Origin: Pirellulales bacterium
GTDB taxonomy: Bacteria > Planctomycetota > Planctomycetia > Pirellulales > JADZDJ01
Direction of reading: 5' to 3'
Length of the DNA: 64,000 bases
Assembly (NCBI GenBank): GCA_035656635.1
Contig: DASRSD010000183.1
Coordinates: forward strand, 1-64,000
Numbering within the stretch: position 1 is the stretch's first letter; each line of letters starts with the position of its first letter. Of this stretch, positions 2,390 to 44,615 are shown piece after piece. The notes under the pieces were generated by a model. The model was not told where the DNA came from. It saw only the letters and a program-made list of their open reading frames with translations, and did not search any database. A program made the translations under genes and the position numbers.

Positions 2390-4243
2390 TTACCCCTCCA
2401 AATGCACTAGCAAAACTGCTACGTCTGTGGGAGTTATGCCGCTAATTCGACTAGCCTGAGCCAAACTTACTGGCCGTACTCGGGCAAATTTTTCACGGGC
2501 TTCCGTGCGAAGCTGAACGAGGGAAGCGTAATCGAAACTCGCCGGAATCCGCTTTTCCTGCAGCCGGCGCAGGCGAGAGATTTCCACTTCCTGGCGCTCC
2601 ACATAGCCGGCGTACTTTAGGTCGTACTCGATGCTGCGCGCCGTCTCTGCCGACGCCTGGGCAAGTTCCGGAAGTTGGGCGACCAACTCCGGCCAGCCAA
2701 TCTCCGGCCGTCTTAATAGTTTGGCTAGCGAAACTTCGCCAACTCTAGTGGTTTCCAAAAGTGCCAAGCTCTGAGCGATAGCAATTTGCTTTTGCTCGAA
2801 GCGCTGCCATCGCCGCTCGTCGACCAGGCCAATTTGCCGGCCCAGCGGCGTTAGCCGGCGATCCGCATTATCTTGCCGCAGCGAAAGGCGGAATTCTGCG
2901 CGGCTGGTGAACATGCGGTAGGGCTCGTCCACTCCGCGCGTTACCAAGTCGTCGATCAACACGCCGATGTACCCTTGTTCGCGCGCCAGCATCAGCGGCT
3001 CGGCGCCGCGCAACATTAAAGCCGCGTTAATCCCGGCCATCAATCCTTGAGCAGCCGCTTCTTCGTAACCGGTGGTGCCGTTAATTTGACCGGCGAAGTA
3101 CAACCCGTTAACAAGCTTCGTTTCCAAGCTGGGCCACAGTTGCACCGGCGGAGCGTAATCGTATTCCACCGCGTAGCCATAGCGCATAATCTCGGCCCGC
3201 TCCAGTCCCGGAATCAGCGGCAGCATTGCGTCTTGCACATCGCGCGGCAAGCTGGTCGATACGCCGTTCACGTAAACTTCCAGCGTGTTGCGTCCTTCCG
3301 GCTCCAAGAACAACTGATGCCGCTCCTTATCCGCAAACCGCACTACCTTGTCTTCAATCGACGGGCAATACCGTGGCCCGCGCGATTGAATTTGCCCCGA
3401 GTACATGGGCGCCCGGTGCAAATTGGCGCGAATTAAATCATGCACGGCCTGGTTGGTGTAGGTAATCCAACACGGCATTTGATTCTGCGTGATGCGGTCA
3501 CTCAGAAAACTGAACGGCTGCGGATCGTCATCGCCCGGTTGAAGTTCGCAGCGGCTGTAATCGATCGTGCGGCCGTTCAAGCGACAAGGAGTGCCGGTTT
3601 TGAAGCGTGCCAGTTCGAAGCCTAATCGCACCAGCGCGCCGCTGATGCCGGCAGTGGTTCCTTCCCCGGCGCGGCCGCCGGGCGTTTGAGTTTCGCCCGT
3701 GTGCATAATCGCTTGCAAAAACGTGCCGGTGGTGAGAATGATCGCGCGGGCCCGGTATTCGGCGCCGCCGCGAACCCGAACGCCGGTGATGCGCGAAGGT
3801 TCGGAATGGGGAATGGGGAATGGGGAATGGGGAATGGGGAACGAAGATGGTTCGACCAGCAAGTCTTCCACCACTTCTTGCCGCAGTACAAGATTCACTT
3901 GCGATTCCACAATCCGCTTCATTTCCTGCTGATATGCTTTTTTATCGGCCTGGGCCCGGGGGCTGTGCATGGCCGGGCCTTTGCGGCGGTTCAGCAGGCG
4001 GAATTGAATGCCGGTGGCATCGATGGCCTGGCCCATGGCTCCCCCTAGCGCGTCGATTTCCCGCACAATTTGCCCCTTGGCCACGCCGCCAATGGCCGGA
4101 TTGCAGCTCATCTGCGCCACCGTGTCGCAGTTGGTGGTGAGCAGCGCCGTGCGAGCCCCCATCCGCGCCGCCGCCAGCGCCGCTTCGCACCCGGCATGAC
4201 CGGCGCCAATCACAAGCACGTCGAATTCGTAGGGGAAGGGCAT
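2390..4243 (-). CDS. mnmG: tRNA uridine-5-carboxymethylaminomethyl synthesis enzyme MnmG (GidA)
   Basis: 617 residues, close to the family norm of about 625. FAD-binding Rossmann motif [15 protein letters not shown] near residue 11, family signature [20 protein letters not shown], and the C-terminal helical region ending near [15 protein letters not shown]. With MnmE (not in this window) it installs cmnm5 on wobble uridine of tRNAs in the cytoplasm. Odd: residues ~134-148 consist of a heptamer DNA repeat translated as [13 protein letters not shown], sitting where other MnmG proteins have a short loop (VENDRVVG in E. coli), so the repeat appears to have expanded in frame. No Shine-Dalgarno precedes the ATG; a CTAGYCCC-type repeat abuts it. 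Confidence 0.97.
3803..3842. repeat. GGAATGG heptamer array inside mnmG
   Basis: Four perfect tandem copies of the 7-base unit GGAATGG plus a partial fifth. Three units equal 21 bases, which keeps the mnmG frame. Degenerate relatives lie between genes at 6327-6381 and 44543-44615. Confidence 0.9.
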
Positions 4244-4282
4244 GGGGGATAGGGGTTAGTGGCTAGGGACTAGTGGCTAGAG
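4244..4282. repeat. CTAGTGGCTAGGG-type repeat upstream of mnmG
   Basis: Degenerate repeats of TTAGTGGCTAGGGACTAGTGG. The same family occurs at 5340-5386, 12348-12377, 12841-12871 and 33169-33210, in four cases directly before a start codon. Confidence 0.75.
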
Positions 4283-4728
4283 TTAGTTTTGTTCTGAGGT
4301 TTTTATTTTCGCGACAGAACGCAATCGTTTTGTCAGCGGACAGATGAAATGGGTTCCGAAAATTGCGGGTTCGGGAATCATCATGGGTGACTCAAACAGT
4401 TCGATTTACGTTCGGCAGTGTTCATTTTCGGTGAAGTGTTTTTCGTCGCTACATTTTCTTTGAATCAAATTTATGAGACAACCTCGTGCTTCACGGCATT
4501 GTCTTGGGCATCGCCCGGCCGCGAACTCTTTGCCCGCGCATGGTCGTTTTGGCCTAAATCTGCCGGCCGCACAATATCTGTGCGCAAAGCAAAGGTGTGC
4601 TGATTTTACCGGATCGCCCGATCGCGTTCAAATCAAAATTAGGCCACTGGCAACATGCAGGTGCGCCACCGGCAATCGCATGAATTCGTAAAATGCCGCT
4701 GGCTGCAGATTAAGCTGCCACAGAGTCA

Positions 4729-4765
4729 TTCGCCGCAAATGAACGGGAATGAACGCAAATCAGAG
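4729..4765. repeat. CGCAAATGAACG-type repeat
   Basis: Copy of a family built from GCCGCAAATGAACG and GAATGAACGCAAAT. Other copies: 14096-14125, 14204-14233, 14632-14730 and 27479-27573. Confidence 0.7.
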
Positions 4766-5445: not shown

Positions 5446-6321
5446 TTAGGCTAGTCGCAGGCCGTGGTCGGTAATTTCGAACGGCACGGTCTGATCGCTG
5501 GCCGCGCTGCCCCGATGCTTGGCAATGTGCAAGGCCCGGCGGATTTTGCCGCCATCCATCACTTTGCCCAATTGAATGATGGTGTTGGCGTTGGCCAGCA
5601 CGTCCCCTTCGTCCAGCGGCCGGCGAATTAGCTCGTCCAGCATGGTCTCGGCCGAAGTGTATAGCAGCAGGCAGCCAATTTGCTCGTGATCGTAACATGC
5701 CTGGGCCACGGCCTCAGCATATTCGCGGAATCGCTGGCGAAACAAATCGCGGGCGACCCAATCGGCCTGCTTGCGCAGAATTTGATGATAGACGTAATCG
5801 AACAGCTCGAATTGGATCGATTCGCTGTGCCGGCCGGCCGGTTCCACGCCGTCGATCACCGTCCGGCGCACGCCTTGGATAAAGTTCCCGTAGAAGAAGG
5901 CAATGGCCGCGTTCAGCCGGGCGTTCAATTCGGCGCGCCACTCGTGCCAGGCGTCAAAATCTAAATCAGATCGACTGACACGTTTGCCGCGGCGATCGAA
6001 AATGTGCAAGTAATCGCCGTGGCAGCGGAGCGGGTTGAAAAAATCGTCCAGGGCCGGCGACGCGGCAGCGCTGGCCGGATGCAGCTTCCAAGCGAACATC
6101 CGCTGGGCATACTCGGCCTGACTTTGCGAATCGCCGCGGGCGGTCATGTCCAAAATAATGCCGCGGTGCTGTTCCTGATGTTGGCCCGCCTCGGCAAATT
6201 GTAACCCCAGTTGCGTTTTGCCGATGCCCGTTGCCCCGACCACCACCGTTAGCCGACCGGGAAGCAACCCGCCCCCGAGCAGCTCGTCGAGACCAGGGAT
6301 GCCGGTAGAGAGGCGGGACAT
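5446..6321 (-). CDS. RecA-superfamily (KaiC/RAD55-like) ATPase
   Basis: 291 residues. Opens with the KaiC/RadA-type motif [18 protein letters not shown], Walker [10 protein letters not shown] at about residues 29-37, and a Walker B-like strand RTVIDGVEP near residue 155. Only one ATPase domain is present, unlike two-domain KaiC. The middle region (residues 70-230) is helix-rich and gives no further clue. The protein probably binds ATP and may act in signalling or DNA-related switching, but its partner is unknown. Minus strand, about 100 bases upstream of the stress protein gene, so cotranscription is possible. Confidence 0.75.
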
Positions 6322-6759
6322 TGCGGGGTGGGAAATGGGGAGTGTGGAATGGGGAATGGGGGAGTGCGGAATGGGGAATGTCGGCCGTTCGTTTAACCCC
6401 GGCGGCCACGCCGGGCGGCCACCGAAGACCTTTCAAGCGGCAGCGTGGTTCGCCGATGAATCGATAGTACCAGTTGAGAAGCGCAGATTGAACGATGCCC
6501 ATCGTCCCGCGGTTTGAAATGCTAGCGGCGGCTTGGGCGGAGGCATGGTGATTGATCTGCCGGCAGTCGGGGCGACAGCGGAATTCCGGATTTGGCATGG
6601 TTGCCCGGCGAGCGTGTTTGTCGGGAAATTCAACGGGAAAGCTCAATTCCGCCAGAAAGCTCAAATTGTCCATGATCTTACTGGCAAGTAGTGGCAGAGG
6701 AGGGAGTTTGTTGTTAAATTAAGAGTTTAACACCTCATCTGACTTAGGATTCGCTCTCG
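6322..6759. other. Intergenic region with GGAATGGGG repeat
   Basis: 438 bases between divergent genes. The first 60 bases hold a GGGGAATGG-rich repeat (6327-6381). A gttaaa/tttaac palindrome lies at about 6712-6731, before the gene at 6760. Other open frames here look like chance frames through the repeat. Confidence 0.6.
6327..6381. repeat. Degenerate GGAATGGGG repeat
   Basis: Alternating GGAATGG, GGAGTG and GGAAATGG units, related to the array inside mnmG. Confidence 0.7.
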
Positions 6760-12764: not shown

Positions 12765-12840
12765 TGGAGTTCCCCAATTACGTTCCGAATGTTGTGTAAC
12801 AGACCGCGCTGAAATAGCATTGTGATCGACACAAGCATCG

Positions 12841-12871
12841 CTAGCCACTAGTCCCTAACCACTAGCCACTC
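12841..12871. repeat. CTAGCCACTAGTCCC repeat, right flank of four-helix gene
   Basis: Inverted relative of the repeat at 12348-12377. It ends three bases before the alcohol dehydrogenase start codon. Confidence 0.8.
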
Positions 12872-14569: not shown

Positions 14570-15886
14570 ATGGAAGCGAGTGGTCTGGAATTTTTGAAAT
14601 CGGTCGCCGTTTGCATGCAACATCTGTTTCTCATTTGCGTTCATTCGCGTTCATTTGCGGCCAATCTCCTGCTGAATGCATTCCGCATCCATTCGCGTTC
14701 ATTCGCGGCTAATCTCCTGCTGGGTGCATTGCTGATTTGCGGCGGTTGTGAAGGAAATCATCCTGCAGCGCCGGCAGCAGGTAATCATCCAGCAGCGGCA
14801 GTTGCTGGCGATGACAGTGACAGTTCCACCGGCGGGCCCTGGCCGGTGTTTCGCCAAAACGCTCAGGCCACGGGCGTGGCGGAGAGTACATTGCCGCAGG
14901 AGTTGCAGCTGCTCTGGAAGTACACGGTGCAGAAAGGCTCGTTCGAATCGACGCCGGTCATTGTCGACGGCGCGGTGTACATCGGCGACATGGACGGCAC
15001 GTTTTACGCGCTCGATTTGCGCTCCGGTCAGGAGCGCTGGAAGTTCGACCTGGGCAAAGACAAAGCCGGCTTTACCGCCGCGGCCGCCGTGCGCGACGGG
15101 CGGGTGTATATCGGCGACATGGACGGCAATTTTTTGTGCCTGGACGCGCAGACGCACGAAAAAAAATGGACAGCCACGGCCGGCGCGGAAATCGATTCGG
15201 CGGCGAATTTCTATCACGACGTGGTGCTGTTCGGTTCGCAAGACACCACGCTGTATTGCTGCAACGCCGCTAGCGGAAAGCAGCAGTGGACGCATCAAAT
15301 TGGCGATCAAATTCGCTGCTCGCCCACCGTGGTGGAAGATTGTTGTTTTCTGGCTGGTTGCGACGGCAAGCTGCATGTGATCGATTTGCACGATGGCCAA
15401 GAAACCGGCGCGGTCGAAATTGCGGCGCCCACCGGCAGCACCCCGGCCGCCAGCGGAGAGTTGATTTATTTTGGCACGGAAGGGGGCACGTTCTTGTGCG
15501 TGAATTGGAAGCGTTTGGAAAAGGTTTGGGATTGGCAGGACCGGCTGCGCGGCCAATCGATTCGTTCCAGCGCCGCCTTGACGGACAAGGCCGTGATTTT
15601 CGGTGGGCGAGATAAAATGGTTCACGCGCTGGATCCCAAGACCGGCGACAAACGGTGGGATTTTATCACCAAAGGGCGCGTCGATAGCTCGCCGGTGGTC
15701 GTGGGCCAGCGCGTGTTTTTCGGCTCGGCCGATGGCCGGATTTACGCGCTCGACATGGCCACGGGCGAAAAAGTCTGGGACTACGAATGCGGCGGCCGGC
15801 TGGTCGGCAGCCCCGCGGTGGCCCAAGGGCGCCTCGTTATCGCCAGCGATGCCGGGGTGATATACTGTTGGGGAGAGAAAAAGTGA
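14570..15886 (+). CDS. PQQ-type beta-propeller lipoprotein with repeat-derived signal peptide
   Basis: 438 residues from ATG 14570 (ATG 14615 also possible). The mature part is a seven- or eight-bladed propeller with blades such as YIGDMDGTFYALDLRSG, YIGDMDGNFLCLDAQT, FGSADGRIYALDMATG and WDYECGGRLVGSPAV. The leader contains HSRSFAANLLL twice, ending LLICGGCEG, a plausible lipobox. Those segments are translated copies of the ATTCGCGTTCATTTGCGGC intergenic repeat, so the export signal appears to be assembled from repeat DNA. The 11-base spacing to the next gene suggests an operon with the Tat-exported NHL protein. Confidence 0.8.
   Translation: MEASGLEFLKSVAVCMQHLFLICVHSRSFAANLLLNAFRIHSRSFAANLLLGALLICGGCEGNHPAAPAAGNHPAAAVAGDDSDSSTGGPWPVFRQNAQATGVAESTLPQELQLLWKYTVQKGSFESTPVIVDGAVYIGDMDGTFYALDLRSGQERWKFDLGKDKAGFTAAAAVRDGRVYIGDMDGNFLCLDAQTHEKKWTATAGAEIDSAANFYHDVVLFGSQDTTLYCCNAASGKQQWTHQIGDQIRCSPTVVEDCCFLAGCDGKLHVIDLHDGQETGAVEIAAPTGSTPAASGELIYFGTEGGTFLCVNWKRLEKVWDWQDRLRGQSIRSSAALTDKAVIFGGRDKMVHALDPKTGDKRWDFITKGRVDSSPVVVGQRVFFGSADGRIYALDMATGEKVWDYECGGRLVGSPAVAQGRLVIASDAGVIYCWGEKK
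14632..14730. repeat. Duplicated ATTCGCGTTCATTTGCGGC repeat in coding sequence
   Basis: Two 41-base copies at 14642-14682 and 14690-14730 match at 37 of 41 positions. They are 48 bases apart, so both are read in the same frame. Confidence 0.85.
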
Positions 15887-23227: not shown

Positions 23228-23307
23228 GTGCCTGGGTGTCTAAGTGTCTGGTTTTATTGCTGGAGCTTAAGGCTATTCAGACACTCAGACACGTAGGCAC
23301 CAGGCAC
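23228..23307. repeat. 80-bp imperfect palindrome
   Basis: Arms GTGCCTGGGTGTCTAAGTGT and its imperfect complement ending GGCACCAGGCAC. It lies between the RRM terminator and the 134-bp element. Confidence 0.7.
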
Positions 23308-23311
23308 CTTT

Positions 23312-23445
23312 GGTAGTGATGCATTTTGCAGTGAACTGCATTGGGTGGCCGGGGTCGAGTGCCGCCGAGCCCCCGGAATGCTGCCCGCTGGGGGCTCCCT
23401 TCGGTCGACCCCAGCCACCCTGCGGAAGCAAAGTGCATCACGACC
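23312..23445. repeat. 134-bp element with terminal inverted repeats, copy 1
   Basis: Ends GGTAGTGATGCATTTTGC and GCAAAGTGCATCACGACC are imperfect inverted repeats. Internal complementary blocks (GGGGTCGA/TCGACCCC, GAGCCCCC/GGGGGCTC) allow a single long hairpin. Copy 2 at 42561-42694 matches at 131 of 134 positions. Confidence 0.9.
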
Positions 23446-23535
23446 GGCGCCTTTTTACCGCTAGATTTCCGCTGCTGATTCCGGTATCTTAGGGAGTTTG
23501 ATTCCCCCTCACTGTTTGGAAGCGCAGAACTCGCC

Positions 23536-27474: not shown

Positions 27475-27478
27475 ATGG

Positions 27479-27573
27479 GCCGCAAATGAACGCAAATCAA
27501 CGGAAATGCGGTAAATTGAAATTCAGATTTCATCAACGGTCTAATTCGCGTCTATTTGCGTTCATTCGCGGCT
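27479..27573. repeat. Inverted pair of ATGAACGCAAAT repeats
   Basis: Left arm GCCGCAAATGAACGCAAATC and right arm TATTTGCGTTCATTCGCGGC form a ~95-base dyad filling the queC-queE spacer. Confidence 0.8.
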
Positions 27574-27601
27574 GATTTTGCAGGCTTGGAAAATTGCCAC
27601 C

Positions 27602-42217: not shown

Positions 42218-43038
<821 letters not shown>

Positions 43039-44542: not shown

Positions 44543-44615
44543 GCGGGAAATGGGGAGTGGGGATAGATTGCTGGCAGGAGGAGGAGTGGGGAATGCGGAA
44601 TGGGGAGTGGGAATC
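44543..44615. repeat. Degenerate GGGGAATGG repeat between genes
   Basis: Mixture of GGAAATGGGG, GGAATGCGGAATGGGG and GGAGTGGG units, related to 3803-3842 and 6327-6381. Confidence 0.7.

Follow-up and report, generated by a model that had tools for sequence, protein, structure and literature searches.

It is customary to place MITEs and REPs in two distinct classes of bacterial repeats, which are moved by DDE transposases and by REP-associated tyrosine transposases (RAYTs), respectively. Bacterial MITEs such as RUP, NEMIS, ERIC and Nezha are shorter than 300 bp, have no coding capacity, and are recognised by their terminal inverted repeats, target duplications and dispersed copies. In REPs, a GTAG or GTGG foot is placed 0-2 nt 5' of a stem-loop, according to the available part of PMC6006769, and in REPINs or BIMEs with their RAYT (TnpAREP), such hairpins form inverted doublets in which a GTGG-type foot immediately precedes the stem on its 5' side, as given in the accessible sections of PMC3116915, PMC6006769 and PMC8266576. 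A REP inside one MITE family is already known: QMITE2 of Coxiella burnetii is, in the portion of PMC5896051 consulted, a MITE containing a GTAG-type REP, with direct repeats of 7-11 nt and with shortened copies that resemble REPs.

The element described here occurs twice in a stretch of 64,000 nucleotides (the window) from contig DASRSD010000183.1 of a Pirellulales bacterium, whose draft genome comprises 4.90 Mb in 190 contigs. It shares with RUP, NEMIS, ERIC and Nezha the properties listed above; unlike them, its interior is a REP-like doublet common to unrelated MITE families. Whereas QMITE2, in the same portion of PMC5896051, is one MITE family with a REP, one doublet type is found here in at least four families of a single genome, and in further families of other genomes. 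The best reading of these data is that the outside is an ordinary MITE and that the unusual part is the REPIN-like interior shared by several unrelated MITE families. The occurrence of one REP doublet within several families of MITEs is not described in the available text of the literature searched (including PMC3733652, PMC6006769, PMC3116915, PMC3189936, PMC1525189, PMC10969869, PMC5896051 and PMC8266576); the relevant terms gave no match in the accessible part of PMC12306157, and a search with the string CCCCAGCCACC yielded no bacterial-repeat paper.

The 134-bp unit and its copies

A sequence-only reading of the window had reported two copies of 134 nt, 131 of them identical, with imperfect terminal inverted repeats. 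Both observations are borne out: the copies (23312-23445 and 42561-42694, both on the + strand) differ at three positions, and the two 17-nt ends, GGTAGTGATGCATTTTG on the left and GGTCGTGATGCACTTTG on the right, match at 15 of 17 positions. Being short, non-coding and bounded by terminal inverted repeats, the element is a MITE by its anatomy. Each full unit is folded as one hairpin, with a minimum free energy in copy 1 of -44 kcal/mol as DNA (z = -7.06) and -84.8 kcal/mol as RNA (z = -8.10), a stability that was equalled by none of 200 shuffled sequences.

The genome-wide search proposed in that reading, in which 40 of 86 first-look candidates were scored, revealed ten full-length copies on nine contigs (133-137 nt, 95-100% identity), the two window copies among them. 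Two more copies are devoid of the right arm, and the centre is repeated many times by itself. The window itself, with only two copies, would also suit a local duplication of one of its segments, which the sequence-only reading had named as the outcome that would refute its proposal; this explanation is practically negligible and has been discarded, since the ten copies have differing flanks and their own duplications. The family must be old as well as recently active, because a strongly decayed copy is preserved at L180:17-140.

The features of both window copies are collected in Table 1. Copy 1 lies upstream of rpsR (ribosomal protein S18) and has an RRM-protein gene on its other side, and copy 2 is located downstream of a trypsin/PDZ protease gene. 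A tRNA or a known RNA family was rejected as the identity of the repeat, given that no Rfam family at gathering score and no tRNA or tmRNA gene is present in the window. An origin from plasmids or phages was likewise rejected, with no match in plasmid or phage collections; one viral contig carries the right-half pattern.

Table 1. Features of the two copies of the 134-bp element in the window
Feature	Positions	Strand	Remarks
Left target-site duplicate, copy 1 (GGCACCTTT)	23303..23311	+	8/9 identical to 23446-23454
Left MITE arm, copy 1	23312..23342	+	terminal inverted repeat 23312-23328; from the pattern of both ends and arm comparison
Left REP-like half, copy 1	23343..23376	+	GGGTGG foot and CCGGGG..CCCCCGG stem
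Centre loop, copy 1 (AATGCTGCCCG)	23377..23387	+	specific to family A
Right REP-like half, copy 1	23388..23420	-	reads GGGTGGCTGGGGTCGACCGAAGGGAGCCCCCAG on the - strand
Right MITE arm, copy 1	23421..23445	+	terminal inverted repeat 23429-23445
Right target-site duplicate, copy 1 (GGCGCCTTT)	23446..23454	+	
Left target-site duplicate, copy 2 (CACCGCGGC)	42552..42560	+	9/9 identical to 42695-42703
Left MITE arm, copy 2	42561..42591	+	
REP-like doublet, copy 2	42592..42669	+	left half 42592-42625, loop 42626-42636, right half 42637-42669
Right MITE arm, copy 2	42670..42694	+	
Right target-site duplicate, copy 2 (CACCGCGGC)	42695..42703	+	

Other repeats were noticed in the window: a dispersed repeat around CATTTGCGTTCATTCGCGTTCATTTGCGGCCAAT in both orientations (4728-4764, 14629-14730 and 27475-27576), short GGGGAATGGGGAATG-type repeats at three distant sites (3788-3839, 6310-6383 and 44561-44612), and an inverted 42-nt pair with GGTTAGTGGCTAGGGACTAGTGGCTAG (4251-4292 and 12829-12870), 81% complementary and separated by 8.5 kb.

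The REP-like doublet in the centre

The centre of the unit extends over 78 nt (nucleotides 32-109) and consists of two inverted half-units, GGGTGG-CyGGGG-...-CCCCrG, around an 11-nt loop, in each of which the foot GGGTGG stands directly before the stem CTGGGG..CCCCAG. When 106 distinct half middles were compared between genomes, the inner pairs 4 and 5 of the half-hairpin were standard in 72/106 and 81/106, against 44.1 and 55.6 expected from shuffling and with none of 500 shuffles reaching the observed values; as these middles are related and not independent, the covariation is strong but does not translate into a probability. Pair 3 switches between A.G and G-C or A-T. Because the inner stem covaries, each half is taken to be a hairpin with the GTGG foot at its 5' side, and the position of GGGTGG directly before the stem agrees with the REP layout as set out in the available part of PMC6006769.

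As with REPs and REPINs, the sequence is found as inverted doublets and as single copies, many per genome: in its own genome the centre also occurs by itself and in the form of single halves, and 184 half-sites were counted there against 39 for the reversed pattern. The centre is a REPIN-like doublet of two REP-like hairpins in inverted orientation. Single REP halves followed by a second hairpin-like repeat of the CCAATGACCAAGCACCAATGACC type were seen at L276, L279, L280, L288, L289 and L292; this repeat was possibly inserted in the doublet loop.

The same centre in other MITE families and genomes

In the same genome the centre is enclosed by at least three other MITE-like families with different terminal repeats, named B, C and D, the window copies belonging to family A. 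Their arms around the centre are GGTAGTGGGCCAATTTGATGG... in B, (G)TCGCCTAATTTGAA... in C and GAGGCTGTTTCAAAACT... in D, the latter family having copies at the ends of several contigs. The left half TCGAGTGCCGCCGAG is common to A, B and D, and both halves are common to A and D; the centre loops differ by family. Two copies are chimeric: L019 joins a B left arm to a type A right arm, with no flank match, and L020, at which no flank match was seen by eye, has a left arm of type A and a B-like end on the right, with a nested centre. Recombination across the shared hairpin explains both of them. L017 and L018 have no right arm and break off behind the centre at one identical base (about position 1112, CACCCTGC). 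This common end point is possibly a second mobile boundary; an imperfect repeat of some 35 bp flanks L017.

The exact right-half pattern was found in 74 stretches from 13 assemblies: 12 carry a planctomycete label, and the thirteenth (Site_C14) is a MAG with a gammaproteobacterial label. In this MAG, the right halves at L099, L106, L111 and L127 have no close partner half, and their presence may be due to transfer or misbinning. The sequences GGGTGGCTGGGG / CCCCAGCCACCC are conserved across planctomycete genomes. The exact string GGGTGGCTGGGGTCG, repeated 60 times in this genome, is present in 24/392 genomes of the phylum, so the repeat is patchy and not universal.

Other MITE-like arms enclose the centre in SJ810 (GTGGTCCATTTCA), IP29b_bin.173 (GGCTTTGTCGG), OFTM22 (GAGGCTGTTTCAAAACCTG) and G067 (GGTAGTGATACCATTTG), and no arms are visible around it in G090 and G016. 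Between type D ends, OFTM22 has the left half TCGAGGCTTTCCGAG, unlike the D elements of this genome, and the congener G001 carries a D-type MITE with another short hairpin in the place of the doublet (L313). These observations suggest that the centres may go with the host rather than with the arms.

Target-site duplications

Target-site duplications, for which the sequence-only reading had suggested looking, are 9 bp long at both window copies and 8-9 bp at most copies. Reading of the flanks showed them, with at most one mismatch, in 7/10 full copies of family A (the window copies, L009, L010, L012, L014 and L015); L013 carries an indel, and a clear repeat of 8 bp is missing at L011 and L016. 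A scripted count at exactly 8 bp, with L019 included and L016 left out, gave 5/10 rows against 0.48 when the right flanks were dealt out anew. These direct repeats are the signature of a transposed element, and their length fits IS1-family elements.

Family B shows a duplication at 8 bp in 4/4 pairs, against 1.14 with redealt flanks. In family D the count at 3 bp (TTA/TAA) is 7/10 against 4.40, which is suggestive only because nearly all flanks are TTA or TAA; such duplications resemble those of some IS5 relatives. In family C a duplication was seen by eye at L027 only. As for the other genomes, G067, from another family of the same order, has an 8-bp duplication in 5/7 copies (0.81 redealt), OFTM22 a 2-bp duplication in 8/9 (1.68 redealt), SJ810 a 3-bp duplication in 4/6 (1.63 redealt) and IP29b_bin.173, with few copies, a 2-bp duplication in 3/4.

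Candidate transposases

The sequence-only reading had left the element as MITE-like or REP-like and mobilised in trans, and it turns out to be both at once, with MITE arms (terminal inverted repeats and 8-9 bp duplications) around a REP-like doublet. Of the Y1/RAYT transposase proposed there, it holds that a RAYT surrounded by REPs with the same foot exists in the genome; it does not adjoin REPs of the CTGGGG stem, and for the MITE ends the evidence indicates a DDE transposase of the IS1 family instead.

The ends of family B closely resemble those of family A, and a B-like end, GGTAGTGGGTCAGTTTGA, is situated at the 3' end of a gene for a 294-aa IS1-family transposase in the same genome (C135:905-1786). 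The element thus resembles the IS1 family (NF033558) in that a family gene stands at a GGTAGTGGG end. This gene reaches 54.3 bits (E = 1.6e-14) with model NF033558, below the curated cut-off of 100, and no matching repeat was found at its 5' end, the B-like end being present on one side only. No autonomous element with type A ends was found, all type A end pairs in the assembly bracketing the centre. L048 and L217 contain single end matches and no centre; L046 is a lone B-like end with no recognised transposase; good A or B ends are lacking at C148 and C152, where other IS1-family genes are located; and the transposase fragment of L180 belongs to the same locus as the decayed A copy, 1.4 kb apart from it. 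We infer that an IS1-family transposase may move families A and B in trans. For family D, no IS5-type parent was found, and the search for type D parents in G100, G001 and G098 was equally unsuccessful. Larger elements in which the halves bracket a transposase gene were considered and rejected, since half pairings are either close (about 48 to 139 nt from start to start) or absent.

With regard to RAYTs, the Y1 gene of C182 (L139) scores 102.6 bits with the REP-associated tyrosine transposase model NF047646 (cut-off 80) and is flanked by inverted doublets with the foot GGGTGG, the same as in our element, and with the stems CCCGGA..TCCGGG and CCCGGACA..TGTCCGGG; this locus is a complete REPtron in the same genome. 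At L139:1120-2420 (G000:C182) the RAYT gene is bordered on either side by two or more REP doublets, about 141 nt long and with the stem CCCGGA..TCCGGG. Among 65 Y1 loci from 12 genomes, a subset of the Y1 matches, none has REPs with the exact CTGGGG stem apart from L143, where the end of a contig carries a type D MITE close to a weak Y1 match. With the foot and any stem, several Y1 genes have GGGTGG-foot hairpins; the foot with a perfect 6-bp stem was counted 36 times near these loci against 5.6 after shuffling, and eight loci (0.0 after shuffling) have two or more such hairpins, one of them being the type D MITE of L143. In this lack of an adjoining RAYT, and in lying inside MITE ends with target duplications, the doublet differs from REPINs and BIMEs.

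Proposed composite origin of the element

We consider, with a probability of about 0.7, that the element is composite: an IS1-type non-autonomous MITE outside and a REPIN-like doublet inside, the doublet riding several MITEs. According to this model, a DDE transposase encoded elsewhere would cut at the GGTAGTG... ends of the unit, whose insertion would produce the 8-9 bp target duplications that are observed. The interior would be a REPIN-like doublet, each half with its GGGTGG foot, and not leftover transposase sequence; it would come from a repeat population that stands alone and also fills other MITE families with unrelated ends, and it would spread as a passenger of several MITEs. Recombination across the common hairpin could let families swap their arms, as the two chimeras suggest.

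The roles might be reversed if the doublet were a REPIN which, mobilised in single-stranded form by a RAYT, had landed in several ready-made MITEs; these would then be targets and not vehicles. The foot directly 5' of the hairpin, the inverted doublets, the standalone copies and the RAYT with same-foot REPs in the genome would all be expected from such a history, and so would the type D MITE of G001 with its replaced interior (L313). It is possible, though somewhat improbable: apart from the D MITE of L143, no RAYT adjoins the CTGGGG stem at the Y1 loci, and the search gave no pair of arms whose junction is unfilled but otherwise identical, L295, the only short pair, being a deletion that keeps GCCACCC. 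Furthermore, the arm linkers bear no relation to one another in the families that were compared, so a shared target motif is not apparent.

The doublet may otherwise have been kept for a hairpin acting at the RNA level, as a terminator, a protection of mRNA ends or an attenuator, with the carrier copies tolerated or useful. The very stable RNA hairpin and the position of both window copies next to genes would suit such a role, which is nevertheless distinctly unlikely, as the repeat corresponds to no Rfam family and the covariation is equally compatible with recognition of single-stranded DNA. GC-rich hairpin centres are common in MITEs, and the likeness between families could also be a coincidence or the result of independent origins followed by gene conversion. 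That recombination leads to exchange is indicated by L019 and L020; however, half middles of 15 and 14 nt, together with their feet, are exactly identical between unrelated arms and GGGTGGCTGGGG / CCCCAGCCACCC are conserved across planctomycete genomes, which makes convergence highly improbable. The composite element with a passenger doublet is thus retained as the preferred reading.

A wider proposal, rather unlikely as it stands, is that REP doublets of Planctomycetota have a second route of spread besides RAYTs, in which the doublet would be an exchangeable cassette filling unrelated MITEs (IS1-type, TTA/TAA-duplicating and 2-bp-duplicating), with each host genome supplying its own REP variant to its local MITE families and with the shared hairpin as the point of arm swapping.

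Implications

In this genome and elsewhere in the phylum, several MITE families that differ in their ends and in their duplications enclose one REP-like doublet. If the composite reading is right, REPs can spread without a cognate RAYT adjoining them, and MITE families can trade their interiors. These genomes would then offer a natural experiment in which the MITE and the RAYT routes of spread could be separated.
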